A stretch of DNA of 64,000 bases from a virus. Each line of letters starts with the position of its first letter. Within the stretch, counting starts at the first letter, position 1. The translations under genes and the position numbers were made by a program. This document shows, piece by piece, positions 40,352 through 60,390 of this stretch. The DNA is taken from positions 1-64,000 of IMG/VR virus record IMGVR_UViG_3300042402_002055; one strand, given 5' to 3'. A model generated the notes under the pieces. That model made no database searches and was not told the origin of the DNA. It saw only the letters and a program-made list of their open reading frames with translations.

Positions 40352-41128
40352 ATGTCAAAATTTAAACATCTTACCACCGAAGAAATCCAACAAATGACAT
40401 TTGATTGGAGATATAGAGGTTGGACAGTATTGGAACTACTTACCGAATCAGAAGTTGATGAAATAAATGCAGAATTAGATAGATTGCGTTTAGAAAGAAA
40501 TGAATCTGAACCTGAAAAATGGCAAGAGTATGAACCATTTATGTATCCTCATAAATTATCTGATAAGTTAGAAAAACTATTTGCACATCCAAAGTTGATA
40601 GAGGCAATGGAGTTTTTAATGGAAGGTGAAATCGTAGGTATGCAAACTTGGGCATATTTTAAACCAAAAGGTGAGTTGGGTAGAGACCAACATCAAAATG
40701 CATTCTATACAGGTTGTGGCCATAATGAAATTGTAAACACTGCATTGGCATTAGATAATCACGACCCTGAAAATGGTTCAGTTTGGAATTATGAAGGTTC
40801 ACATAGATTACCTGTTTTACCTATGGAAGATAATGAGGAAAGAAAGGCAACTAACACTGCAAACTGGAGAAGTGAGAGAGGAATTAGTTGTGTAATGCCT
40901 GAAGGGCATGATTTCCGTAAAGTAGAAGGACATTTGAAAAAGGGACAAGTTGCACTTTTACACTCTCATGTTGTACATGGTTCTGACCCAAATAAAGATA
41001 CTACAAGAATGAGAAGAAATTTCTTAGGTGGTTATTTAAAGAAGGGTGCATATTTTAGACCAGGAAACCAAATGAAGAGAGAACCAATTGATATCTATGA
41101 AGTTAGAAAGAAACATTGGGGAGAATAA
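40352..41128 (+). CDS. Phytanoyl-CoA dioxygenase (PhyH)-like 2OG oxygenase
   Basis: 258 residues. Family blocks are FDWRYRGWTVLELLTESEVD, WAYFKPKGELGRDQHQN, DPENGSVWNYEGSHRLP and QVALLHSHVVHGSDPN with the final R-rich strand. The expected iron motif H-x-D reads H114-Q-N116, so the acidic ligand is replaced by Asn. The distal His (H209) and later Arg residues are present. PhyH enzymes hydroxylate small molecules or nucleosides; the substrate here is unknown. The Asn could mean altered chemistry (SyrB2-type halogenases also lack the acid) or loss of activity. It has its own host-type promoter. Confidence 0.78.
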   Translation: MSKFKHLTTEEIQQMTFDWRYRGWTVLELLTESEVDEINAELDRLRLERNESEPEKWQEYEPFMYPHKLSDKLEKLFAHPKLIEAMEFLMEGEIVGMQTWAYFKPKGELGRDQHQNAFYTGCGHNEIVNTALALDNHDPENGSVWNYEGSHRLPVLPMEDNEERKATNTANWRSERGISCVMPEGHDFRKVEGHLKKGQVALLHSHVVHGSDPNKDTTRMRRNFLGGYLKKGAYFRPGNQMKREPIDIYEVRKKHWGE

Positions 41129-41130
41129 AT

Positions 41131-41161
41131 TTTGTAAATCAAAATATTTTTAGTATATTGT
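41131..41161 (+). promoter_or_regulatory. Host-type promoter TTTG-N19-TATATTGT
   Basis: TTTG at 41131-41134 and -7 box at 41154-41161; the ATG follows after 5 nt, so the mRNA would be leaderless. Confidence 0.6.
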
Positions 41162-41166
41162 AGGGT

Positions 41167-42438
41167 ATGAATCTAATTGAAGATAAACGTACCCTACTTT
41201 CGTTTTTAGGGGGTAATGTAAATATTGACCTTATCATTCCTGTATGGAGTTCTCATAGAGCACATCCGTTGGGGAATCGTTTGTCTTTTATATATTTTAG
41301 ACAAATCAATGGTGAAGATGGTATAATCAATTTCAATCACATAGATGCAAAGAAATTAGACAAATTCGACATATCAAAAATAGTCCATGTAAATACATTA
41401 GTTTTAGACAATAGGTATTTAAAGACCATAGGATTGGATTATGAGTGGGTATACTTTGAAGAGAATGGGAAACCATTTATCTTTAATGAAGTCGTAGAAT
41501 CGGTTTATAGAGGGTATAGAAACGACTTTAAGGAGTTGAATGATTGTGTACCTTTAATGAAGTGGTTGGAAATACTTAGAACAATCCCAAATATCAGTAC
41601 AAGACAAGATTGGTATAGAAAATATACATCAGCAATCAACATATTGGGAAGGCTGGAAGGGGCTGGGGTAAAAGTCGTAGAAGAAAAATTTATTGATAGT
41701 TTTACATTCAATCCACAATACATCAAAAAGGGTGGTATCGTTTACACACAATATAATCCATATACAACAACCGGCAGACCATCCAATCGTCATCTTAATG
41801 TCAACTACTCTGCGTTAAACAAATCCGATGGTACGAGAGAAATGTTTATTAGTCGTCATCCACACGGAACCCTAATTCAATTTGACTATGAGTCGTATCA
41901 CATTCGTTTGATTGCAAAAATGGTTGGGTATGAGTTTCCAACGGGTACAACGGCCCACCAACACCTTGCAAACCTTTATGGGTGTGATATAGAGACGGCA
42001 AAGAAAATAACCTTTACATACCTTTATGGGGGATTAGACGATAATGCTCGACAAATACCATTCTTTCAAAAGGTCGATGAATACATTAAGGAATTATACC
42101 AAAGGTTCGTCATTTCGGGAAAATTAACGACACTCTTATATAAAAGAGAAATACCATTCCATAGAATTGAGAGTGCCAACGAACAAAAGGTATTCAACTA
42201 TTTACTACAATCATTAGAGACTGAAATCAATTATATGAAGATTGGTGAGGTATTGGAGTATTTGGAGGGGAGAATGTCAAAAATGATACTTTATACTTAT
42301 GATGCCTTTCTTATAGACACACATCCTATTGAAAGAGAAAATCTTTTAAACGACATTAGAGAGATAATGGAGAAGGGTGGTTTTCCGGTAAAAATCGAAG
42401 AAGGAGAGAATTATAACAATTTAGAGGTTATAAGTTAA
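41167..42438 (+). CDS. Truncated family A (Pol I-like) DNA polymerase
   Basis: 423 residues. Polymerase motifs in order: TTTGRPSN at 200-207 (the T-x-GR-x-S motif), motif A with D240 in QFDYESYHIRL, motif B as an O-helix K279-x3-F283-x3-Y287-G288 (AKKITFTYLYGG), and motif C with D379 in YTYDAFLID. Both catalytic Asp are kept; the usual HDE reads YDA. There is no 5' nuclease and no recognisable 3'-5' exonuclease in the first 170 residues, which are family-unknown. The phage also has a family B replicase (57835), so this enzyme probably does gap filling, repair or another special synthesis. Pol A-like enzymes are usual in T7-like, not T4-like, phages. Confidence 0.85.
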   Translation: MNLIEDKRTLLSFLGGNVNIDLIIPVWSSHRAHPLGNRLSFIYFRQINGEDGIINFNHIDAKKLDKFDISKIVHVNTLVLDNRYLKTIGLDYEWVYFEENGKPFIFNEVVESVYRGYRNDFKELNDCVPLMKWLEILRTIPNISTRQDWYRKYTSAINILGRLEGAGVKVVEEKFIDSFTFNPQYIKKGGIVYTQYNPYTTTGRPSNRHLNVNYSALNKSDGTREMFISRHPHGTLIQFDYESYHIRLIAKMVGYEFPTGTTAHQHLANLYGCDIETAKKITFTYLYGGLDDNARQIPFFQKVDEYIKELYQRFVISGKLTTLLYKREIPFHRIESANEQKVFNYLLQSLETEINYMKIGEVLEYLEGRMSKMILYTYDAFLIDTHPIERENLLNDIREIMEKGGFPVKIEEGENYNNLEVIS

Positions 42439-45795: not shown

Positions 45796-46203
45796 ATGAA
45801 TACACAATTACTTTGCCTTTTTACAACCAAAGAGGAGTTAGAGAAATCGATTCAATTTATATTGGGAAGTTATACCTTAACCAATCCAAATGTTTTTATA
45901 TTAGAAAATAAAACACATTTAGAAGAGTGTTATATTACTTTCAATGTGGAAAAGGGTTCGATTGCAATTCCGTCTGATTGGAAAACAATTCTTGTACATA
46001 GAAAAAAACAATCTAATACAATATACACTATTAACGCTTTAAATGAAGTAGTTAAGTCAAAAACTGGTGGTATGTTGGATAATTCATATATGATTGATTG
46101 GGAAGAATTTAGAAATTGTATTCTTACAACCTCAAATTCAGGATACAAAAAAATACCTACAAAAGTATTTAAATCTTTTAATACTCAAAATTTGGAGAAT
46201 TAA
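45796..46203 (+). CDS. Conserved hypothetical phage protein
   Basis: 135 residues. It opens MNTQLLCLFTTKEELEKSI, followed by VFILENKTHLEECYITFNV and HRKKQSNTIYTINALNEVV. I remember this general pattern from other T4-like phages but know no function. It looks like a single alpha/beta domain of about 110 residues. It starts 4 bases after the large gene. Confidence 0.55.
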   Translation: MNTQLLCLFTTKEELEKSIQFILGSYTLTNPNVFILENKTHLEECYITFNVEKGSIAIPSDWKTILVHRKKQSNTIYTINALNEVVKSKTGGMLDNSYMIDWEEFRNCILTTSNSGYKKIPTKVFKSFNTQNLEN

Positions 46204-47526: not shown

Positions 47527-48384
47527 ATGGACATTTCATTGGCACTAAAGAGATTTAGCTCTTTACAAAACAACACTAAAAAGTCGGATTCAATTTTCAA
47601 ACCGGCAAACGGAAAATCTCAAGTGAGAATCGTTCCTTACAAGTTCAACAAAGACATTCCTTTCATTGAACTTTACTTTCACTACAACATTAACAACAAG
47701 ACTTATTTGAGTCCAATGTCATTTGGTAGACCTGACCCTATCGTTGAGTTTGCAGAAAAACTTAAGAGAACAGGTGATACTGATGATTGGAAAGCGGGTA
47801 AGAAAATGGAACCAAAGTTAAGAACTTTTGTACCAGTTATCGTAAGAGGTAAAGAATCAGAAGGAGTAAAATTCTGGGGATTCGGTAAGACAGTTTATCA
47901 AGATATCTTAGGATATATTGCTGACCCTGATTACGGAGATATTACAGACCCAATGACAGGTAGAGATATCGTATTGGAAGTAATGTCAGCAGAAGAGTCT
48001 AACGCATCTTACCCAACAACAACAATCAGAGTTAAACCTGCAACGTCTAAATTAGCAGATTCTCCGGAAACTATCCAACAATTATTGGATGGTCAAAAAG
48101 AAATTACTGAATTATATTCGGAGTTATCTTACGCAGAATTAAAGTCAGTTTTAGAAAATTGGTTAAACCCATCAGCAGCAGTTGGTAGTGATGATATCAT
48201 TGAAGAATTAGAAGCACCAAAACCAAAAGCAATAGTTGCAACACCAAAACAATCTGATGTTTTAGTTGATATGGGTGGAACAACTGGTGAATTGGGTGAC
48301 TTACCTTGGGAAAAGGAAGAAGCTGCAAAACCAGCACAAAAGGATGATGTAGCATCAGCATTTGATGATTTATTTAACAATTAA
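47527..48384 (+). CDS. gp32: Single-stranded DNA-binding protein, T4 gp32-like
   Basis: 285 residues (T4: 301). The N-terminal segment has a basic-helix start, and the core reads KSQVRIVPYKFNKDIPFIEL, YFHYNINNKTYLSPMSF, then KFWGFGKTVYQDILGYI and DPMTGRDIVLEV, the gp32 OB-fold order. The C-terminal 60 residues are acidic (EELEAPKPK, DDVASAFDDLF), the usual protein-interaction tail. It coats ssDNA in replication and recombination and partners UvsX next door. The long leader suggests self-regulation as in T4, by inference. Confidence 0.9.
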   Translation: MDISLALKRFSSLQNNTKKSDSIFKPANGKSQVRIVPYKFNKDIPFIELYFHYNINNKTYLSPMSFGRPDPIVEFAEKLKRTGDTDDWKAGKKMEPKLRTFVPVIVRGKESEGVKFWGFGKTVYQDILGYIADPDYGDITDPMTGRDIVLEVMSAEESNASYPTTTIRVKPATSKLADSPETIQQLLDGQKEITELYSELSYAELKSVLENWLNPSAAVGSDDIIEELEAPKPKAIVATPKQSDVLVDMGGTTGELGDLPWEKEEAAKPAQKDDVASAFDDLFNN

Positions 48385-48397
48385 TAATTAGGTTACA

Positions 48398-49504
48398 ATG
48401 GCCAAAAGAGAAGAGGATTTAGCAAGTATTCTTGCAGATTCATTAAACAAACAAAATAAGGATGGTAAGATTGCCTACTTTCTAAATGATGAAGGTGGTG
48501 ATGCTCCTACCAATGTTAAAGATTGGATTTCAACTGGCAATGCTATGTTGGATGTTGCAATCTCTAATAGACCTTATGGTGGCTTCCCTGTTGGACGTAT
48601 TAGTGAGATTACGGGTTTAGAGCAAAGTGGAAAATCTTTGCTCTCCGCCCATCTCCTTGCTGAAACACAACGCAAAGGTGGAGTGGCCGTATTGATTGAT
48701 ACCGAAACTGCAGTAAGTAGAGAATACTTAGAAGCAATCGGAGTAGATATTTCAAAGTTATTGTATGTTTCAGTTGACACCGTTGAAGGTATCTTTGAAG
48801 CATGTGAAACGATTATTGAAAAGGTTAGAACAGGAGATAAAGATAGATTGGTTACAATTGTAGTCGATTCAGTAGCAGCTGCATCTTCAAAGAAAGAGAT
48901 GGAAGCTGATTACGACAAAGATGGTTACGCAACTGACAAAGCTATTATTATTTCCAAAGCAATGAGAAAGATTACCAATATGATTGGTCGTCAATCAATC
49001 GCTTTAGTATTCACAAATCAATTAAGACAAAAGATGAACGCAATGTTTGGTGACCCGTGGACAACATCCGGTGGTAAGGCATTAGCATTCCATGCTTCAG
49101 TTAGATTGAGATTGAAGAATATGGGACAATTGAAACAAGGTGATAGAATTGTAGGTATTAAAGTTCGTTGTCAAGTTATTAAAAATAGAATGGGCCCACC
49201 ATTGAGACACGCAGACTTTGACATTTTCTTTGACAGAGGTATTGATAATTTCGGTGGATGGTTAGCAGTAATGAAAGACGCTAAAATCCTTAAACAAGCA
49301 GGAGCTTGGTACGAATATGTTGATATCGATTCAGGAGAAGTTATGAAGTTTCAATCTAAAGACTTTGCAAAAATGTTACAAGATGAGAAACTTAAAGAAC
49401 AAATTTATTTAAGAATTTGTGAGACTGCAATATTGCAATATAAAAACAATTCCAATTCGGATGAAGTTGAAGTAACAACGGACGAAGCAAATGAGTCAGA
49501 TTAG
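48398..49504 (+). CDS. uvsX: UvsX, RecA-like recombinase
   Basis: 368 residues. The Walker A motif is GLEQSGKS at residues 73-80. The Walker B region is RLVTIVVDSVAAAS, and VFTNQLRQKMN with the TTSGGKALAFHASVRLRL segment matches RecA/UvsX DNA-binding loop regions. It catalyses strand exchange for recombination-dependent replication. It lies 13 bases after the SSB gene, and its 3' end overlaps the next gene by 14 bases. The acidic C-terminus is similar to RecA tails. Confidence 0.93.
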   Translation: MAKREEDLASILADSLNKQNKDGKIAYFLNDEGGDAPTNVKDWISTGNAMLDVAISNRPYGGFPVGRISEITGLEQSGKSLLSAHLLAETQRKGGVAVLIDTETAVSREYLEAIGVDISKLLYVSVDTVEGIFEACETIIEKVRTGDKDRLVTIVVDSVAAASSKKEMEADYDKDGYATDKAIIISKAMRKITNMIGRQSIALVFTNQLRQKMNAMFGDPWTTSGGKALAFHASVRLRLKNMGQLKQGDRIVGIKVRCQVIKNRMGPPLRHADFDIFFDRGIDNFGGWLAVMKDAKILKQAGAWYEYVDIDSGEVMKFQSKDFAKMLQDEKLKEQIYLRICETAILQYKNNSNSDEVEVTTDEANESD

Positions 49505-50549
49505 TAAAAAGTATTTAGATATACTAAAAGAAATAGATGAAGAACATAAAGGATTTGGAGATTTGCAACGCAACTCTAAAACTTTAGTAATTGATGGTCT
49601 TAATACCTTCATTCGTTCTTGGTCAACCGCTCCGAATCTTAATGATAACGGAGACCATATTGGAGGCATAGTCGGTACTTTAAAAAGTATCGGCTTTGCA
49701 ATCCGTACAATTAACCCAACAAGAGTTATCGTTGTATTCGACGGTAAAGGTGGTTCACAAAGTAGAAAAGACATATATTCTGGTTACAAATCGGAGAGAG
49801 GTAAGAACAAAATCAAAATGAGATTGAATCGTGCCGCAACTATCGAAATGAATCCTGAAGAAGAAAGTGCATCAATGAAAAGACAAATGTCTGCATTAGG
49901 TGAACTACTTTCATCATTACCTGTTTCCATTATGATTTATGATGGAATTGAGGCAGATGATGTTATGGCGTATATTGCTACAACCCTACGACAAGAAAAC
50001 GAAAAGGTTGTGATAATGAGTACGGATAAAGATTTCCTTCAATTGGTAAATAAAGATGTGAGTGTATATTCTCCATCTAAAAAGAAAGTTTACAATATTC
50101 CAGAAGTAGTAGAAGAATTTGGTATTCATCCACATAATTTCATTAATTTCAGAATGATTGACGGAGACAAATCCGACAATGTAGAAGGTATTAGTGGATT
50201 GGGTGTTAAATCAATTATGAAAGCATTTCCAATGTTAACGGAACACCAATTAGTTGACACCAACGATATGGTGGACTATGTAAACACATTAACAAAAAAA
50301 TCAAAAGCACACGAATTATTCTTAGATAATTTGGAAATTTGCGAAAGAAATCGTAAATTGATGCAGTTAGCAGAACCAACATTTAGTGGTAATCTCCGTA
50401 TGAAAATTATGGATAGATACAATGAACCAACAACAAAATTTGACAAACAAACTTTCTTAAAGTATGGTTTGAAGAATAGAATATTAGAAGGTTTCCCAAA
50501 TGTGTTGGACTGGTTACAATCAACATTCGCACATATAGCAAAATTTTAA
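49491..50549 (+). CDS. rnh: RNase H / 5'-3' FEN-type exonuclease, T4 rnh-like
   Basis: 352 residues (T4: 305). FEN blocks are LVIDGLNTFIRSW, VIVVFDGKGGSQSRKDIYSGYK, YDGIEADDVMAYIA, and VVIMSTDKDFLQLV with the DGDKSDNVEGISGLG helix-hairpin-helix. The acidic cluster for two metals is complete. It removes RNA primers from lagging-strand fragments. The 14-base overlap with uvsX indicates coupled translation. Unlike T4, it lies in the recombination operon. Confidence 0.9.
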   Translation: MSQISKKYLDILKEIDEEHKGFGDLQRNSKTLVIDGLNTFIRSWSTAPNLNDNGDHIGGIVGTLKSIGFAIRTINPTRVIVVFDGKGGSQSRKDIYSGYKSERGKNKIKMRLNRAATIEMNPEEESASMKRQMSALGELLSSLPVSIMIYDGIEADDVMAYIATTLRQENEKVVIMSTDKDFLQLVNKDVSVYSPSKKKVYNIPEVVEEFGIHPHNFINFRMIDGDKSDNVEGISGLGVKSIMKAFPMLTEHQLVDTNDMVDYVNTLTKKSKAHELFLDNLEICERNRKLMQLAEPTFSGNLRMKIMDRYNEPTTKFDKQTFLKYGLKNRILEGFPNVLDWLQSTFAHIAKF

Positions 50550-50561
50550 AAACAAAAAGTT

Positions 50562-50876
50562 ATGACAAAAACAGCAGACAAATTAGCAAAACCATTAGGA
50601 GACAGAGTTCTTTTAACGGAATTAGAAGCAGAGGCTTCAAAAACTGCCGGTGGTATTATCATTCCAGATAGTGCAAAATCGGAAGATGTAAAGAGAGCAA
50701 GAGTAGACGCAGTAGGTGATGGCCTATTCACACAATCAGGAGTAGCAATTCCGATGAGTGTAAAAGTAGGTGATGAAGTAATCCTTCCACCATATCATCA
50801 AGGAGTAGAAATTAAAGTAGGTGGAAACAAATACATCTTACTTAGAGAATCAGAATTATTAATGGTTATTAGATAA
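50562..50876 (+). CDS. groES: GroES-like co-chaperonin
   Basis: 104 residues. Canonical GroES blocks: KPLGDRVLLTELEAE, TAGGIIIPDSAKSED (mobile loop region), VKVGDEVILPPYHQGVEIKV and KYILLRESELLMVI. In T4 the unrelated-sequence gp31 replaces GroES for folding gp23. Here a true GroES homologue does the job, probably taken from a bacterium. The capsid gene in this window is a plausible client. Confidence 0.93.
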   Translation: MTKTADKLAKPLGDRVLLTELEAEASKTAGGIIIPDSAKSEDVKRARVDAVGDGLFTQSGVAIPMSVKVGDEVILPPYHQGVEIKVGGNKYILLRESELLMVIR

Positions 50877-50898: not shown

Positions 50899-51054
50899 AT
50901 GAAGTGTCTTAAAAGTAATAAAACAGGAAAAATTATTAGAGTTAGTGATAGAGAAGCTAACCTAGCAACGAGTGAGTGGAAGTTTATTCCAAAGAGCGAG
51001 TGGAAAACGGCAACAAGAAAAGTAAAAGTAGAAACCGATAAAACTGAAGCATAA
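50899..51054 (+). CDS. Small basic conserved protein (51 residues)
   Basis: The frame reads MKCLKSNKTGKIIRVSDREA and then a WKFIPKSEWK segment, ending Lys/Glu-rich. The ATG at 50899 has one of the few clear Shine-Dalgarno sequences in the window (GGAGG at 50888-50892, 6 nt away), which decides the start. Its TAA overlaps the helicase ATG (TAATG), so it is coupled to gp41. The function is unknown; a repeated 'WKFIPKSEWK' motif suggests a small nucleic-acid or protein-binding fold. Confidence 0.65.
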   Translation: MKCLKSNKTGKIIRVSDREANLATSEWKFIPKSEWKTATRKVKVETDKTEA

Positions 51055-52412
51055 TGCAAGAAGTAGATACACTAGTCAAATATGGCCAATCGTATCAATC
51101 TAAAGTTGTTGCTTCTCTTATAACAGATGTAAAGTTTTTAGAACAAGTAAGTGAAATTACTAAACCTTTATTCTTTGAGTCTCAAGCAAACCAATGGATT
51201 GTAAAAGAGGTTCAATCATACTTTGATGAATATAGAACAGTTCCGACAATGGAAGTGTTTAAGATTAAAGTTGGTGACATTGAAGATAAAGGATTGAAAC
51301 AAACGGTAGTTGAACAATTAAAGAATGTTTATTTACAAATTGGTGCAGAAGATATACCATATGTAAAAAAAGAATACCTTACATTTGCAAAAAATCAGAA
51401 AGTTAAAGAAGCTCTATTCAAATCGGTAGACCTATTAAAGAACGGACAATACGACCAGATTATAGATACGATGATGAAGGCATCCAAAGTGGGTGTTGAG
51501 TCGGATTTAGGTTTGGACTATATTGAAAACTTTGAGTCCATTTTAGAAGATGTTAAAAGAGATTCCACACCAACAGGATGGGATGTTATTGACGAACTAA
51601 TGGATGGTGGTTTAGGTCCCGGTGAATTAGGAGTTGTTATGGCACCATCTGGTATCGGTAAAAGTTGGTTCTTATCTAAGATTGCATGTTCTGCATTACA
51701 AAGAGGTATAGATGTATTACATTATACTTTGGAATTGTCAGAAAGTTATGTAGGTCAAAGATATACAACTATTCTTACCAACATTGCAACCGCAGACCAG
51801 AAAGATAGAAAGGATGAAATCATTCGTAAAATCAAACAAGTTCCGGGTAGAGTTCGTATTAAGTATTATCCACCACAATTTGCATCTGCAAAAACAATTG
51901 CAGCACACATTGAGAAAATAAAACAAACTGGATTCAATCCAAAACTAATTGTGATTGATTACGCCGATTTGTTAAAGAGTGGTAATGGTTCAAGAGATGG
52001 TTTATACGCTGAGTTGGGTGGTATCTACGAAGAACTTAGAGGGTTGAGTGGTGAACATAAGATTCCAGTATGGACTGCAACACAGACGAACAGAGCAGCA
52101 ATAGACCACGAAGTTATTCAAGCGGATAGTGTGGGTGATTCGTATAAGAAAGTCCAAACTGCAGACTTTATAATGTCAGTAAGTAGGAAAACAAAGGATA
52201 AGTTATCAAACACAGGTCGTATTCACATTGTAAAGAATAGATTTGGTCCTGACGGAATGACATTTCCTGCAAAGATTGATACATTTACAGGTACTATGGA
52301 TGTGTTTGCCGCCAATTCGGTTGACGGAATGTCATCTACAAAGGATAGTAAAAATGGTGAAGGATTAGAGAAAAAATTACTACATAAGAAGTATGTAGAG
52401 AATATGGGATAA
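51054..52412 (+). CDS. gp41: Replicative DNA helicase, DnaB-type / T4 gp41-like
   Basis: 452 residues. The N-terminal helical domain ends near residue 150. Then comes the RecA-type ATPase core: GWDVIDELMDGGLGPGELGV, Walker A APSGIGKS at 197-204, LHYTLELSESYVGQR, and KLIVIDYADLLKSG (Walker B), with the ATQTNRAAIDHE region and the GDSYKKVQTADFIMSVSR segment. It unwinds DNA ahead of gp43 and recruits the primase, which is not seen in the window. Confidence 0.93.
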   Translation: MQEVDTLVKYGQSYQSKVVASLITDVKFLEQVSEITKPLFFESQANQWIVKEVQSYFDEYRTVPTMEVFKIKVGDIEDKGLKQTVVEQLKNVYLQIGAEDIPYVKKEYLTFAKNQKVKEALFKSVDLLKNGQYDQIIDTMMKASKVGVESDLGLDYIENFESILEDVKRDSTPTGWDVIDELMDGGLGPGELGVVMAPSGIGKSWFLSKIACSALQRGIDVLHYTLELSESYVGQRYTTILTNIATADQKDRKDEIIRKIKQVPGRVRIKYYPPQFASAKTIAAHIEKIKQTGFNPKLIVIDYADLLKSGNGSRDGLYAELGGIYEELRGLSGEHKIPVWTATQTNRAAIDHEVIQADSVGDSYKKVQTADFIMSVSRKTKDKLSNTGRIHIVKNRFGPDGMTFPAKIDTFTGTMDVFAANSVDGMSSTKDSKNGEGLEKKLLHKKYVENMG

Positions 52413-54887: not shown

Positions 54888-55091
54888 ATGAAATTAGTAG
54901 GTGAATTACATCCAATGCATAAACTGACTGAAGAACAGGTATTGCAAATTAGGGAACTATATAAAATAGGTCATAGAAATATTAATGTAATAGCTAGGAA
55001 CTATGGAGTATCATCAGCTAATATAAAAAAAATAGTTACAAACGAAACATGGAAACACATGGTTAAGTGGCCATATGAAAGTACAAGATAA
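54888..55091 (+). CDS. Small helix-turn-helix protein
   Basis: 67 residues from the ATG at 54888, chosen because the promoter box would otherwise lie inside the gene. HKLTEEQVLQIRELYKIG, then NVIARNYGVSSANIKKIV, is a tri-helical HTH as in resolvase/NUMOD-type DNA-binding units. The end overlaps the first Mom-like gene by 17 bases, so the three genes form one coupled operon. Mom of phage Mu is tightly regulated; this HTH protein is a candidate regulator of the two downstream enzymes, by inference. Confidence 0.6.
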   Translation: MKLVGELHPMHKLTEEQVLQIRELYKIGHRNINVIARNYGVSSANIKKIVTNETWKHMVKWPYESTR

Positions 55092-55842
55092 ACAATATTG
55101 TGATACTTCCAAGTTTAGTGTAAGGTTAATAGAAAAGTCGGTTGCAAAGAATATAATAGTAAAATATCATTATTCTAAACAATGGACAAAAGTTAGTTAC
55201 GCATTGGGATTGTTCTACGAAAACGACACCGAACATAAATTCTTTGGTGGAGTAAATCAGGAACTAATTGGAGTGATTTGTTATGGTGACCCGATTGGTA
55301 GACATTGTGGAGCATCTATAAGTGAAACATTGGATAGAACGGAAGTGATGGAATTAGTAAGACTTTTTGTATTTGACGGTTATGGTTGTAACATTGAAAG
55401 TTGGTTTGTCGGAAAGTCTTTTGAATGGTTAAAAGAAAACGCAAAACAAATAAGAGCACTGATATCATACTCCGACCCTGTGCAAGGACATAAAGGTCAA
55501 ATATATCAGGCAACAAATTGGTTATATCAAGGAACAAGTATTAGACCTAATGACACATGGTCTTTTCGTTTTGAAGAAGGTGGTAAATGGATACATGGTA
55601 GAACTATGGCACCTTATTGGGGAACAACCTCACCTTTCAAATTACAAGAACTTATTGATAAACCATTTTGGGTAAAGAGAGAACCAAAGAAACATAGGTA
55701 TATCTACATTTTGGGCAAGGATAAAAAAGATAAAAAGGAATTATCAAAAAACATAAAACATCCTTTATATCCATACCCAAAAACATTAGAGAAATATACC
55801 GAAGAAATATTAAAATTAGAACCAATTGAAAGAGTTAAATAA
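55075..55842 (+). CDS. Mom-like GNAT acyltransferase, paralogue 1 (DNA modification?)
   Basis: 255 residues. VAKNIIVKYHYSKQW carries the H32-Y33 pair; ELVRLFVFDGYGCNIESWF, ALISYSDPVQGHKGQIYQAT and NWLYQG match the Mom family of phage Mu, whose members modify adenine (methylcarbamoylation). The C-terminal 60 residues are Lys-rich (LGKDKKDKKEL), as expected for DNA binding. It starts inside the HTH gene and ends inside the paralogue. Whether the chemistry is the same as in Mu is not visible. Confidence 0.75.
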   Translation: MKVQDKQYCDTSKFSVRLIEKSVAKNIIVKYHYSKQWTKVSYALGLFYENDTEHKFFGGVNQELIGVICYGDPIGRHCGASISETLDRTEVMELVRLFVFDGYGCNIESWFVGKSFEWLKENAKQIRALISYSDPVQGHKGQIYQATNWLYQGTSIRPNDTWSFRFEEGGKWIHGRTMAPYWGTTSPFKLQELIDKPFWVKREPKKHRYIYILGKDKKDKKELSKNIKHPLYPYPKTLEKYTEEILKLEPIERVK

Positions 55843-56629
55843 GTTATATTGTGATACAAGTAGAGTATCGGTTAGAGAAATAAGCAGTTCAGTTGCAAAA
55901 GAAATTATAGTTAAGAAACACTATACACATGCATGGACTGCGTGTAGATATTCATTGGGTATCTTTTACAAAACTGATGAGTCAAATGCATTGGGTGATA
56001 ATGATAAACTAATTGGATGTTTAGTGTATGGATTCCCAGTAGGTGCAAGAGCTGCAAATTCAGTTTCAGATTCAATTACAAAAGATAACATTTTAGAATT
56101 GACACGATTGTATTGTGATGATGGATATGGTTCAAACATTGAGTCATATGCGTTAGGACAATCGTTTAAGTGGTTTAGAGAAAATGATAAAGCAATTAAA
56201 ATCTTAATCTCATACGCAGATAACGGACAAGAACATTTAGGAGGTATTTATCAGGCAACGAATTGGATTTATCAAGGAATGAATACCGATATTGCATTGA
56301 TGCCAAATTACGGAATATCACTTTCAAATGACCCTTACAAATGGATTCATAGCAGAACTGTGTTTTCAATGTGGGGTAGTGGTAATTTGGAACATCTTAG
56401 GAGAGAAATTGGTAAACAGGGATATAAAGAGTTTTGGAGAAGAGAAGAACCACCAAAACATAGATACATACAAGTATTGGGTGCAGACAAAAAAGAAAAA
56501 AGAGAATTACTTAAAACTCTAAAACACGACCCAAAGTCATATCCAAAAGATACACGTGAATTTAATAAGGATATAGAAATCCATACTACAATTGCACCTG
56601 AAACCGAACTTGCAAGTAAGTTTTGGTAA
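55826..56629 (+). CDS. Mom-like GNAT acyltransferase, paralogue 2
   Basis: 267 residues, starting at a TTG (55826), the only start codon in frame before the conserved YCDTSR block. H32-Y33 (VKKHYTHAW), ELTRLYCDDGYGSNIESYA, LISYADNGQEHLGGIYQAT and NWIYQG mirror paralogue 1. The 17-base overlap with the upstream gene equals the overlap between the HTH gene and paralogue 1. The C-terminal tail is also Lys-rich. The two could form a heterodimer, or modify different sites or with different groups. Confidence 0.73.
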   Translation: MKELNKLYCDTSRVSVREISSSVAKEIIVKKHYTHAWTACRYSLGIFYKTDESNALGDNDKLIGCLVYGFPVGARAANSVSDSITKDNILELTRLYCDDGYGSNIESYALGQSFKWFRENDKAIKILISYADNGQEHLGGIYQATNWIYQGMNTDIALMPNYGISLSNDPYKWIHSRTVFSMWGSGNLEHLRREIGKQGYKEFWRREEPPKHRYIQVLGADKKEKRELLKTLKHDPKSYPKDTREFNKDIEIHTTIAPETELASKFW

Positions 56630-56657: not shown

Positions 56658-57833
56658 ATGAATAAATTTTGGGATACAGGCAATGAGCCTAAAAAATCAG
56701 ACGGATTTGATTTTGAAAAAAATAAAAGAGAGTTACTTGAAAATTTAGACTATCTAATGGGTATGTCAGTACAAGAACAAACCCTCTATAAGAAGTGGGT
56801 AGAATGGAATCAGGATTTACATGGTAGTATGAAATTACTTCCTGCATTACACCAACAATACGATAAGATTTGGGAACCCACAGACATATTGGATTATGAT
56901 AAAACTGTAAAGGAAATACAAGAACTAGAACCATTTGTTGAATTGGTAGAAGATGGTGAAGCAACTCGTTGGACACATATGAGAAAGTTAATTTCCTCAA
57001 TGGAATTCAGTGCAAATCCAGGTCGTAATGTTAAAGCATTTGTGAAAGACAGAAAATCAAATAAAATATTAGGTGTTATTTCATTGGGTTCGGATATTAC
57101 AAGTTTGGGTGTTAGAGATAATTTTATAGGTTGGAAAAAAGAAGATAAATTTCAAAATGGTAAATTAAATAACACCACAATCGGAACATCCATTATAGCA
57201 ACACAACCATTGGGTTATAATTTTTTAGGTGGTAAATTGGTCGCAGCATTAACTACATCTCCTGTTTTTAGAAAACAATGGAAAGAAAAATACAATAATA
57301 TTTTAATTGCAGTTGGAACTACTGCCTTATATGGTGCAAGTTCTCAATACAATGCAATTCCACATTTTAAAACATTAGGTGAAAGTAAAGGTTTAATTAA
57401 CATTAAACCAGATGATAAGTATTATGATATTTGGCATCAATATGTTAAAAATTTAGACCCAGTGTGGTATGATAAAGCGATAAACTCCACGGGCCCAAAA
57501 CAAAATGTTTTAATGAGAGTTTTTAAAGAAATCGATGTTAAGGCTTCTCTTTATAATCATGGTTTTAAGAGAGGTGTATATTTTGCACAAATGTATGAGA
57601 ATGGTAATGATTATCTATGTTCTAAAATTGATGAGGATAAATTGATAATGAAACCAAAGTTTGTACAAGGTGACGAATATACAATCAAATGGTGGAAAGA
57701 TAAGGCAATAAAAAGATATACAACATTACATAGTGAAGGAAGATTAAAATCGGAAAAGTTATTTTATGCTGACATCATTGGAATGACATGGGAAGAATGT
57801 AAAGAAAAATATTTAAAAGAAGTGGGAAGATAA
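56658..57833 (+). CDS. DUF4338/DruA-like protein
   Basis: 391 residues. The segment ILGVISLGSDITSLGVRDN, then FIGWKKEDK, then IATQPLGYNFLGGKL, then VGTTALYGASSQYN, follows the plan of DUF4338, the family of the Druantia protein DruA. That family may share the GNAT-like fold of Mom. It stands directly after two Mom-like genes but has its own promoter. The biochemical function is unknown. It could add a further modification step, or counter host defence, or replace a lost Mom partner; these are guesses. The stop is one base before the polymerase ATG. Confidence 0.62.
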   Translation: MNKFWDTGNEPKKSDGFDFEKNKRELLENLDYLMGMSVQEQTLYKKWVEWNQDLHGSMKLLPALHQQYDKIWEPTDILDYDKTVKEIQELEPFVELVEDGEATRWTHMRKLISSMEFSANPGRNVKAFVKDRKSNKILGVISLGSDITSLGVRDNFIGWKKEDKFQNGKLNNTTIGTSIIATQPLGYNFLGGKLVAALTTSPVFRKQWKEKYNNILIAVGTTALYGASSQYNAIPHFKTLGESKGLINIKPDDKYYDIWHQYVKNLDPVWYDKAINSTGPKQNVLMRVFKEIDVKASLYNHGFKRGVYFAQMYENGNDYLCSKIDEDKLIMKPKFVQGDEYTIKWWKDKAIKRYTTLHSEGRLKSEKLFYADIIGMTWEECKEKYLKEVGR

Positions 57834-57834
57834 T

Positions 57835-60390
57835 ATGTATCAAAATATATTTTACGAAAGAGCAAAAAATCTCATGCACTTGTGGGATGACAAAAATGGA
57901 TATCAAACAATGCCATACCGAAAGTATGCGTATAAAAAAGACCCACAAGGACAGCATCTTTCAATGAATGGAGAAAGACTTACAAGAATTTCAAAATGGG
58001 AAAAAGAAGACAATGATGACTTATTTGAAAGTGATGTTCCAGAAACAACAAGAGTGTTAGTGGATATTTACGATAGTGATATTCCTTCGAATGGACATAG
58101 AGTATTGACTTTTGACATTGAGGTTGAAATGATATCAGGACTCCCAAACACAAAAGAAGCACAAAACGAACTGACAGCAATTGCAGCACATGATGGTGCA
58201 ACTAAATTGTATGATGTATTCGTATTAGACAAAGACAAAATAGTTAAAAATAATGCCAAAAACTTTAATAAAGATGGGAGAGAAGTTACTCTACACATTT
58301 TCGATAACGAGAAAAATCTCTTACTTGCTTTCCTTAATTATTACGAGGAAATTGACCCGACTATTCTTACGGGATGGAATATAGATTTCTTTGATATTCC
58401 GTATTTGTATAATCGTATAAAAAATGTATGTGGAGAAGGCCATGCAAAAAGACTTTCTAGAATAGGACAATGTTTCTATTCACCATATAGAGAGAAATGG
58501 TCTTTTGGTGGTGTATCAATTTTGGATTACATCAGTTTATACAAACAATACAACTTTGGACTAGAAAGTTCATACACATTGAACCACATCGCAACAAAAG
58601 AATTGGGTAGAGGCAAAGTTGAGTATGAAGGAAGCTTGGATGATTTATTTGTAAATGATTTAGAAAAGTTTATTGAGTATAATATTGTCGATGTGGACTT
58701 AGTGGTATCAATGGATGAGAAGTTAAAGTTTATTGATTTATGTCGAGCTATATGTCACGCCGGTTATGTTCCTTATGAAGATTATATGTTTTCGTCAAAA
58801 TGGTTAGAAGGAGCTTGTTTAGCATATCTTAAAACTAAAAATATGGTTGCAACAAACAAACCGGCCGATAGGAGAGAGAGAATGCAAGCATTGAAAGATA
58901 ATGACCAAGAAAAGTTTATTGGAGCATATGTAAAAGAACCCATCGTTGGTAAGTATGATTGGATTTATGATTTGGATTTGACATCACTATACCCATCAAT
59001 CATTATGACCCTAAATATCAGTCCTGAAACAAAGATTGGTAAGATTTCAAATTGGGATGCAGAACAATATATCAAAGGTGAGGAAATCACTTATAAGTTA
59101 AAGGGTAAGGATGGTGATGAATACGAATACAATCGTCAGGAATTAGCAGATGTTATTAAAGATAGTAATTTGGGTGTAGCAGCCAATGGAGTCCTTTATA
59201 TGCAAGATAAACCAGGTTTGATTGCGGATATCCTTAACACATGGTTTAACAAAAGGGTTGAATATCGTAAATTAGAAAAGAAATATGGTGAGGAAAAAAA
59301 TACCGAATTATATGAGTTCTATGGTAAGAGACAACACGTTCAAAAGATTCTATTGAACTCAATGTATGGTGTATTAGGATTACCTGCATTCCGTTTCTAT
59401 GATGTGGATAACGCAGAGGCAGTAACCCTAACAGGACAAGTAGTAATTAAAAAGACGGCTGAAATGGCAAATAGAAAATATTGGAAAGAATTAGAAACAA
59501 CTGACGACTATAATGTTTATATTGATACCGACTCAATTTATATGATGGCAGAACCTTTGGTAAAACATAGATACCCAGAATATAAGACATTTGATGAAAA
59601 GAGGATGGCAGTTGAAGTGGATAACATTGCAACCGAAACACAAACATTCTTAAACTCATTCTACGACTTATTGGCAGAGAGATTTTTCTTTATTCCAAAA
59701 GATAAACATAGATTTGAGATTAAAAAGGAATATATCAGTAAAGCAGGATTTTGGGTAGCAAAGAAACGATATGCACAATGGATGATTTTGAAAAACGGAA
59801 TACCTTGTGATAAGTTGGATGTTAAAGGTTTGGATGTAGTTAGAAGTTCATTTCCAAAAGCATTCCAAAAGTTTATGTCGACAATGTTGAAAGATATTCT
59901 AATGGGTAAAGACCATGAATATATAGATGATACTCTATTGACATTTAAGAAAAGTTTACCAACACTACCTGTAAATACAATAGCAAAAGGTGGAGCATTA
60001 AAAGAATTGAGTAAATATGATAATGGTAGTTGGAAACCTGGAAATGCAGTAGCAAATTTTGAGAAAGGAACACCTGCACACGTTAAAGCCGGAATAACAT
60101 ATAATAGATTATTAAAATTCTTTAATTGTCCATATAAGCATGAACCAATTAGAGATGGTGATAAAGTAAAATGGGTATATCTTAAAGACAACCCATTAGG
60201 ATTAGAAACAGTTGCATTCAAAGATTATAATGACCCAAAAGAAATTATGGATTTTGTGGAAACCTATGTGGATAGAAACAAAATATTTGAAGCAGAATTA
60301 GAAAACAAATTAGATGACTTTTATAACGCATTAAAGTGGGATAAAGTTACCGCAGATACAAAAACAGCAAAAAAGTTTTTCGCATTTTAA
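57835..60390 (+). CDS. gp43: Family B replicative DNA polymerase, T4 gp43-like
   Basis: 851 residues (T4: 898). Exonuclease motifs are FDIE at 93-96 and TGWNIDFFDIPYL. Polymerase motif A is DLTSLYPSI (D381), motif B KILLNSMYGVLGLP, and motif C DTD at 564-566 (YIDTDSIYM). The end (DDFYNALKWDKVTADTKTAKKFFAF) fits the clamp-binding tail of gp43. It is complete and without an intein, in the same operon as the clamp. Confidence 0.96.
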   Translation: MYQNIFYERAKNLMHLWDDKNGYQTMPYRKYAYKKDPQGQHLSMNGERLTRISKWEKEDNDDLFESDVPETTRVLVDIYDSDIPSNGHRVLTFDIEVEMISGLPNTKEAQNELTAIAAHDGATKLYDVFVLDKDKIVKNNAKNFNKDGREVTLHIFDNEKNLLLAFLNYYEEIDPTILTGWNIDFFDIPYLYNRIKNVCGEGHAKRLSRIGQCFYSPYREKWSFGGVSILDYISLYKQYNFGLESSYTLNHIATKELGRGKVEYEGSLDDLFVNDLEKFIEYNIVDVDLVVSMDEKLKFIDLCRAICHAGYVPYEDYMFSSKWLEGACLAYLKTKNMVATNKPADRRERMQALKDNDQEKFIGAYVKEPIVGKYDWIYDLDLTSLYPSIIMTLNISPETKIGKISNWDAEQYIKGEEITYKLKGKDGDEYEYNRQELADVIKDSNLGVAANGVLYMQDKPGLIADILNTWFNKRVEYRKLEKKYGEEKNTELYEFYGKRQHVQKILLNSMYGVLGLPAFRFYDVDNAEAVTLTGQVVIKKTAEMANRKYWKELETTDDYNVYIDTDSIYMMAEPLVKHRYPEYKTFDEKRMAVEVDNIATETQTFLNSFYDLLAERFFFIPKDKHRFEIKKEYISKAGFWVAKKRYAQWMILKNGIPCDKLDVKGLDVVRSSFPKAFQKFMSTMLKDILMGKDHEYIDDTLLTFKKSLPTLPVNTIAKGGALKELSKYDNGSWKPGNAVANFEKGTPAHVKAGITYNRLLKFFNCPYKHEPIRDGDKVKWVYLKDNPLGLETVAFKDYNDPKEIMDFVETYVDRNKIFEAELENKLDDFYNALKWDKVTADTKTAKKFFAF

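Follow-up and report, generated by a model that had tools for sequence, protein, structure and literature searches.

Why does a T4-like phage that encodes a gp43-type DNA polymerase also carry a second, much smaller polymerase of another family? The question is raised by a gene in a 64,000-nucleotide stretch of viral DNA (positions 1 to 64,000 of IMG/VR record IMGVR_UViG_3300042402_002055; hereafter the window). A model given the letters and their open reading frames, whose account we call the sequence-only reading, had described this gene as encoding a Pol I-like polymerase of 423 residues, well under Klenow in size, in a phage that already has gp43. The two polymerase genes are as follows.

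41167–42438, plus strand: short family A DNA polymerase of the divPolA1 type, 423 aa, ATG start
57835–60390, plus strand: gp43-type family B DNA polymerase (PolB) with exonuclease domain (phrog_262, 4.3e-181; PF00136, PF03104)

Profile searches placed the 423-residue protein in family A. Pfam DNA_pol_A (PF00476) matched residues 184–403 (E = 1.3e-10) with 41.2 bits, above the curated cut-off of 34.3 bits, and comparison with PHROG returned phrog_17, DNA polymerase (7.6e-12). An AlphaFold model, built on an input alignment of 48 family members from the window and IMG/VR, had a pLDDT of 93 and a pTM of 0.90, and the best solved structure found with Foldseek was the Klenow fragment (E = 4.6e-18; TM-score by query 0.68–0.73 for Klenow entries); the next matches were Pol nu, Taq and Pol theta. 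Open reading frame, Pfam, PHROG and fold therefore all agree with the polymerase assignment, the match to a Pol A palm that the sequence-only reading had proposed as a check holds at the level of the fold, and the difference in size from Klenow is real (423 compared with 605 aa). Two residues typical of family A, the steric-gate Glu of motif A and the dNTP-binding Arg of motif B, are absent (Glu710 is replaced by His245 and Arg754 by Ile275, in E. coli Pol I numbering), but membership in the family stands because these residues are typical of it and are not required by the profile. By fold and profile, the product of 41167–42438 is predicted to be an intact family A polymerase. Its gene is present in a single copy in the whole 118,406-base virus record that includes the window, and the PolB gene, which is indeed the second polymerase that had been noted, lies 15 kb downstream of it.

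This kind of polymerase is not itself new. The divPolA1 family was named in 2024 with gene 1 of Flavobacterium phage immuto as its type member, and was described as having its thumb truncated and its exonuclease dead, and as occurring in 14 phages alongside a regular A-, B- or C-family polymerase (PMC11348598). The window gene belongs to this family. Its product aligned to the divPolA1 of Flavobacterium phage immuto 3-5A (gene 1) with 33.1% identity over residues 119–415 (E = 2e-37), and it resembles the divPolA1 proteins of immuto and related phages in its homology along the polymerase domain, its short size and its dead exonuclease (PMC11348598). All divPolA1 sequences tested clustered together, apart from regular phage PolAs (support 97/100), in a tree whose outgroup branches are long, which makes the order among the outgroups unreliable. 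The window phage is outside the 14 genomes listed (PMC11348598), and two accessions from that paper, LR796625 and MK892584, are outside the collections that we compared. Among 50,697 phage records, the only named carriers of the short form were immuto (four records), Microcystis phage Mel-JY01 and LR756508, an uncultured phage of 484 kb; the remaining matches were regular PolAs with 23–26% identity along a portion of the polymerase domain. In IMG/VR there were 210 close relatives of the window protein and more than 590 loci with relatives in all, and a search of host genomes from 84,980 species found a relative on only three MAG contigs. Identity is 66–100% within the window's clade and about 28–33% to immuto. 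Complete family members are mostly 403–455 aa long and dN/dS is 0.10–0.19, which indicates purifying selection; sizes and ratio together rule out a truncation or pseudogene. These sequence comparisons indicate that the divPolA1 gene of the window is real and selected and did not arise by chance.

The genes downstream of divPolA1 form a replication module, of which the window contains the following members.

45796–46203, plus strand: small conserved gene, called p45796 here, downstream of divPolA1 in four of four groups and in 12 of 12 records
47527–48384, plus strand: gp32-like single-stranded DNA-binding protein (SSB) (PF08804, 1.6e-14; phrog_1192/224)
48398–49504, plus strand: UvsX-like recombinase (phrog_97, 2.9e-75)
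49491–50549, plus strand: 5'-3' exonuclease of the FEN/Pol I type (PF02739, 4.8e-33)
51054–52412, plus strand: DnaB/gp41-like replicative helicase (phrog_19, 2.4e-81)

In each of the four divPolA1 groups the genes follow one another in the same order (baseplate genes, divPolA1, p45796, SSB, UvsX, 5'-nuclease, DnaB/gp41 helicase), with several genes between divPolA1 and the SSB gene in the window's clade, unlike in immuto. As in the published divPolA1 phages, the window phage has its second polymerase beside a regular replicase of family A or B, with replication genes downstream (PMC11348598). The product of p45796 (135 aa, with the invariant core HRKK..NT.YTIN.LN) had no match in Pfam or PHROG. 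When 80 loci were fetched through p45796 alone, divPolA1 was present in all 32 whose upstream sequence reached 3 kb or more. Among named phage records, p45796 was found in the six that carry divPolA1 and in no other. A control tail gene was limited to the same six records, which rules out p45796 as a specific partner of divPolA1. Because tail and upstream baseplate genes are equally restricted, the co-occurrence of divPolA1 with its neighbours reflects lineage and not a specific partnership.

The main replicase differs between these phages. Within the window's clade, four of six large records contained PolB, as did Mel-JY01 and LR756508; immuto, a complete genome, has a full-length PolA and neither PolB nor PolC; and 18 further records contained six PolB genes and six long PolA genes (approximately 780 residues), never both beside divPolA1. 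A family C replicase was searched for in immuto and in the window's record and was not found. The full-length PolA of immuto (L340:16555–18888) is located where relatives carry a gp43-type PolB, in a genome that is otherwise T4-like (gp20, gp21-type protease and gp23). Full-length replicative phage PolAs (for example, immuto gene 71, 777 aa) also belong to family A and occupy the replicase slot held by PolB in the window phage; unlike divPolA1, they have a 3'-5' exonuclease domain, Glu at the gate position and Arg754. As the replicase type varies and every p45796-fetched locus with enough upstream sequence carries divPolA1, the genome comparison indicates that divPolA1 is a core gene that stays in place while the replicase swaps between PolB and full-length PolA. 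The presence of two polymerases, taken at first as an oddity of one T4-like phage, is instead the rule for a whole lineage, a large one of aquatic T4-like phages, in which divPolA1 is most likely a core accessory polymerase. That a small enzyme is kept while the main polymerase swaps between families A and B suggests a job that neither replicase can do, and naming this job would define the minimal division of labour in phage replication.

What this job might be depends in part on the domain that precedes the polymerase.

41167–41526, plus strand: residues 1–120, vestigial DEDD 3'-5' exonuclease-like domain (separate AlphaFold model, pLDDT 85.7)

When the model of residues 1–120 was compared with the PDB, almost all top matches were DEDD exonuclease domains or polymerases containing one (Nibbler, apicoplast polymerase, Rrp6, RNase D and WRN), and the matches were weak (best E 5e-3). 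A sequence match between residues 1–120 and the Klenow exonuclease domain was not found, the DEDD likeness being visible through structure, and neither an exonuclease family match nor acidic motifs were seen in the 423-aa sequence. Sequence and model together indicate that the N-terminal 120 residues are a degenerate, presumably dead exonuclease fold, which agrees with the inactivated exonuclease of the published description (PMC11348598). The sequence-only reading, which had seen no recognizable exonuclease, was right that there is no working one and missed the remnant. As regards the thumb, only about 80 residues separate the exonuclease-like domain from the TGR motif in the AlphaFold model.

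On balance, and as judged from its sequence and model, divPolA1 is probably an active accessory polymerase that lacks proofreading and serves in gap filling or in synthesis during recombination. The protein would consist of a Pol I-type polymerase domain joined to a dead, shrunken 3'-5' exonuclease domain, and as the latter is dead, primer extension without proofreading is expected. Genome copying would be done by PolB, or by full-length PolA in the sister phages, and divPolA1, encoded at the head of the gp32–UvsX–5'-nuclease–gp41 cluster, would most likely carry out short-patch synthesis in the same transactions. It would fill gaps that the 5'-nuclease leaves at Okazaki junctions, and it would extend recombination intermediates made by UvsX, or lesions. 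The polymerase and the 5'-nuclease of a Pol I would then, in effect, be two separate proteins in this phage. We infer catalytic activity, distributive synthesis without proofreading and the gap-filling or recombination role from these features; a literature search found no biochemistry of any divPolA1 member. Gap filling, lesion bypass and recombination cannot be told apart by synteny with replication genes, and divPolA1 may conceivably be a lesion-bypass or damage-tolerance polymerase that acts when gp43 or the long PolA stalls. The lack of proofreading, the presence of divPolA1 in addition to every replicase type and the neighbouring UvsX and gp32 genes, whose products act in recombination-dependent restart, would all suit such a role, but nothing specific to lesion bypass is visible in the protein, and we hold this possibility only tentatively.

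The case for an active accessory polymerase must also account for the residues that handle the nucleotide. The conserved motifs of the window protein are as follows.

41764–41787, plus strand: TxxTGRPSN motif, R204 at the Klenow R668 position (T202, R204 and P205 in 329/329 covering members)
41884–41907, plus strand: motif A, DYESYHIR, with catalytic D240 and with H245 at the Glu710 position (D240 and H245 in 330/330)
41989–42030, plus strand: motif B, with I275 (Arg754 position), K279, F283 and Y287-G288, as placed by alignment
42208–42222, plus strand: QSLET motif, Q348 corresponding to Q849 (Q in 327/328; E351 and T352 in 327/327)
42292–42309, plus strand: motif C, YTYDAF, with catalytic D379 and with HDE changed to YDA (Y378 in 326/326; D379 in 325/326)

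Residues were mapped by two profile alignments to E. coli Pol I, in which the E. coli positions were checked. D240 corresponds to D705, H245 (codon 41899–41901) to E710, I275 to R754, K279 to K758, F283 to F762, Y287 to Y766, Q348 to Q849 and Y378-D379-A380 to H881-D882-E883. The window protein therefore resembles E. coli Pol I and Klenow in its fold, in the catalytic Asp pair and at the positions of Lys758, Phe762, Tyr766-Gly767, Arg668 and Gln849. It differs from Klenow, besides its size and vestigial exonuclease, in a shorter fingers insert after motif B and in four replacements: Glu710 to His, Arg754 to Ile (Tyr in most relatives), His881 to Tyr and Glu883 to Ala. The sequence-only reading had called motifs A, B and C intact and had recorded the change from HDE to YDA. 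The latter is exactly where it was placed, and the former holds for D240, K279, F283, Y287-G288 and D379, but the changes at Glu710 and Arg754 had been overlooked. Its observation of a polymerase is confirmed, and its interpretation was partly right. The prediction of strong ddNTP discrimination shows this well: Phe is present at the 762 position, but discrimination cannot be read from Phe283 alone, and the prediction is unsafe because the neighbouring determinants at the Glu710 and Arg754 positions have changed.

These changes are shared across the family. K279, Y287 and G288 were kept in 330/330 members, the Arg754 position was Tyr in 268/330, almost all remaining members having Ile (as in the window), Leu, Thr or Val, and position 380, equivalent to Glu883, was Ala or Ser, giving YDA or YDS. 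As some family scans had used a motif A pattern, the His at the Glu710 position was counted again on sequences found through other patterns, and was present in 119/119 of this subset. In loci fetched by a neighbouring gene, His was read in 46, and a simple motif scan made no call in five. The two sets rule out a search artefact as the source of the invariance. By comparison, six regular phage PolAs and a divPolA2 protein had Glu or Gln at this position, and the six regular PolAs kept Arg754. The divPolA2 proteins (barbaviruses; Vibrio phage AUR84708) are likewise short, extra PolA-like proteins in PolB phages, but have an unrelated N-terminal domain and a variable neighbourhood (PMC11348598); in our comparison, divPolA2 retained Glu at the gate position and did not join the divPolA1 group in the tree. 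The main text of the divPolA1 paper does not use the words 'steric', 'histidine' or 'glutamate' (PMC11348598), and the same unusual His at the predicted steric-gate position in every relative examined is new relative to the published family. Our data extend the published description from 14 genomes to more than 590 loci, and add retention across replicase swaps and an invariant His/Tyr signature at two nucleotide-selecting residues.

Glu710 is the steric gate of E. coli Pol I against ribonucleotides, according to a paper that cites Astatke et al. 1998 (PMC13228545). Since Glu710 to His and Arg754 to Tyr both affect nucleotide-handling residues, divPolA1 could have weak activity or another substrate, which counts against an accessory DNA polymerase of the ordinary kind. 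One form of this idea is that the His gate admits rNTPs, or rNTPs together with dNTPs, so that divPolA1 would make RNA or mixed patches, for example as a primer-extending or priming enzyme. The invariance of H245, set against the Glu or Gln of regular PolAs and divPolA2, would fit such altered selectivity. A motif C with Ala or Ser in place of Glu also occurs in single-subunit RNA polymerases; Ser in place of Glu883 is, however, seen in ordinary phage PolAs too. His is not a small residue and may itself act as a steric gate, and the sugar-positioning Phe283 and Tyr287 are kept, which speaks in favour of a DNA polymerase. Immuto, Mel-JY01 and four relatives of the window phage all have a gene for a DnaG-type primase; as these phages lack no primase, primase replacement is ruled out, and a priming role is unlikely. 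Taken together, we consider altered sugar selectivity unlikely. The fuller proposal, in which the invariant His gate and the Tyr in place of Arg754 change sugar or triphosphate selection and create a dedicated enzyme kept by every member whatever the replicase, seems to us quite doubtful; if it were true, T4-like phages would have an enzyme devoted to making patches of RNA or of mixed RNA/DNA. In practical terms, divPolA1 could be of use as a small polymerase that is free of exonuclease and unusual in its choice of substrate.

Two putative expression signals surround the start codon.

41131–41160, plus strand: Bacteroidota-type promoter-like element (TTTG, 19 nt, TATATTG), ending 6 nt before the ATG
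41161–41196, plus strand: RNA hairpin sequestering the start codon, 9 bp (TAGGGTATG / CGTACCCTA), z -4.1

The leaderless host-type promoter suggested earlier for this gene is plausible, in that the element would give a near-leaderless transcript and TTTG-N19-TATATTNG is conserved through the window's clade; the -7 box of the window itself (TATATTGT) is imperfect, and many clade relatives have the exact TATATTTG. The hairpin, with arms UAGGGUAUG...CGUACCCUA in the divPolA1 mRNA, is the strongest among 52 gene starts in the window, the gp32-like gene (47527) being second. It shows a compensatory change in one relative (L057), and members without the upstream arm also lack the downstream arm. It was looked for in the other divPolA1 groups and was absent, being confined to the window's clade, which rules it out as a family-wide operator. 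T4 gp43 and gp32 have translational operators, which the hairpin recalls. Together with the loss of Arg754 and the position of the gene directly after the baseplate genes, this might suggest that divPolA1 is a relic, catalytically dead or regulatory, with primer-template or mRNA as its ligand, or else a component of the virion whose gene sits with those of the baseplate. The sequences compared are only 27–35% identical, yet both catalytic Asp residues are essentially invariant, which a dead protein would not need, and the hairpin is missing from the other groups; we regard a relic or virion protein as very improbable and continue to favour an active accessory polymerase.

Several other genes of the window lie close to the polymerases. 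A phytanoyl-CoA dioxygenase-like gene (40352–41128) is located between the baseplate genes and divPolA1; within the window's clade 63 of 101 loci have it upstream, and it was not detected in the other three divPolA1 groups. Two tandem Mom-like DNA-modification genes (phrog_1384) occupy 55075–56629, and a homologue of DruA (Druantia defence, DUF4338; Pfam 1e-20, PADLOC 2e-23) lies directly before the PolB gene at 56658–57833. A GroES-like co-chaperonin is encoded between the 5'-nuclease and helicase genes (50562–50876), and chaperonins have been described near the regular polymerases of divPolA1 phages (PMC11348598).
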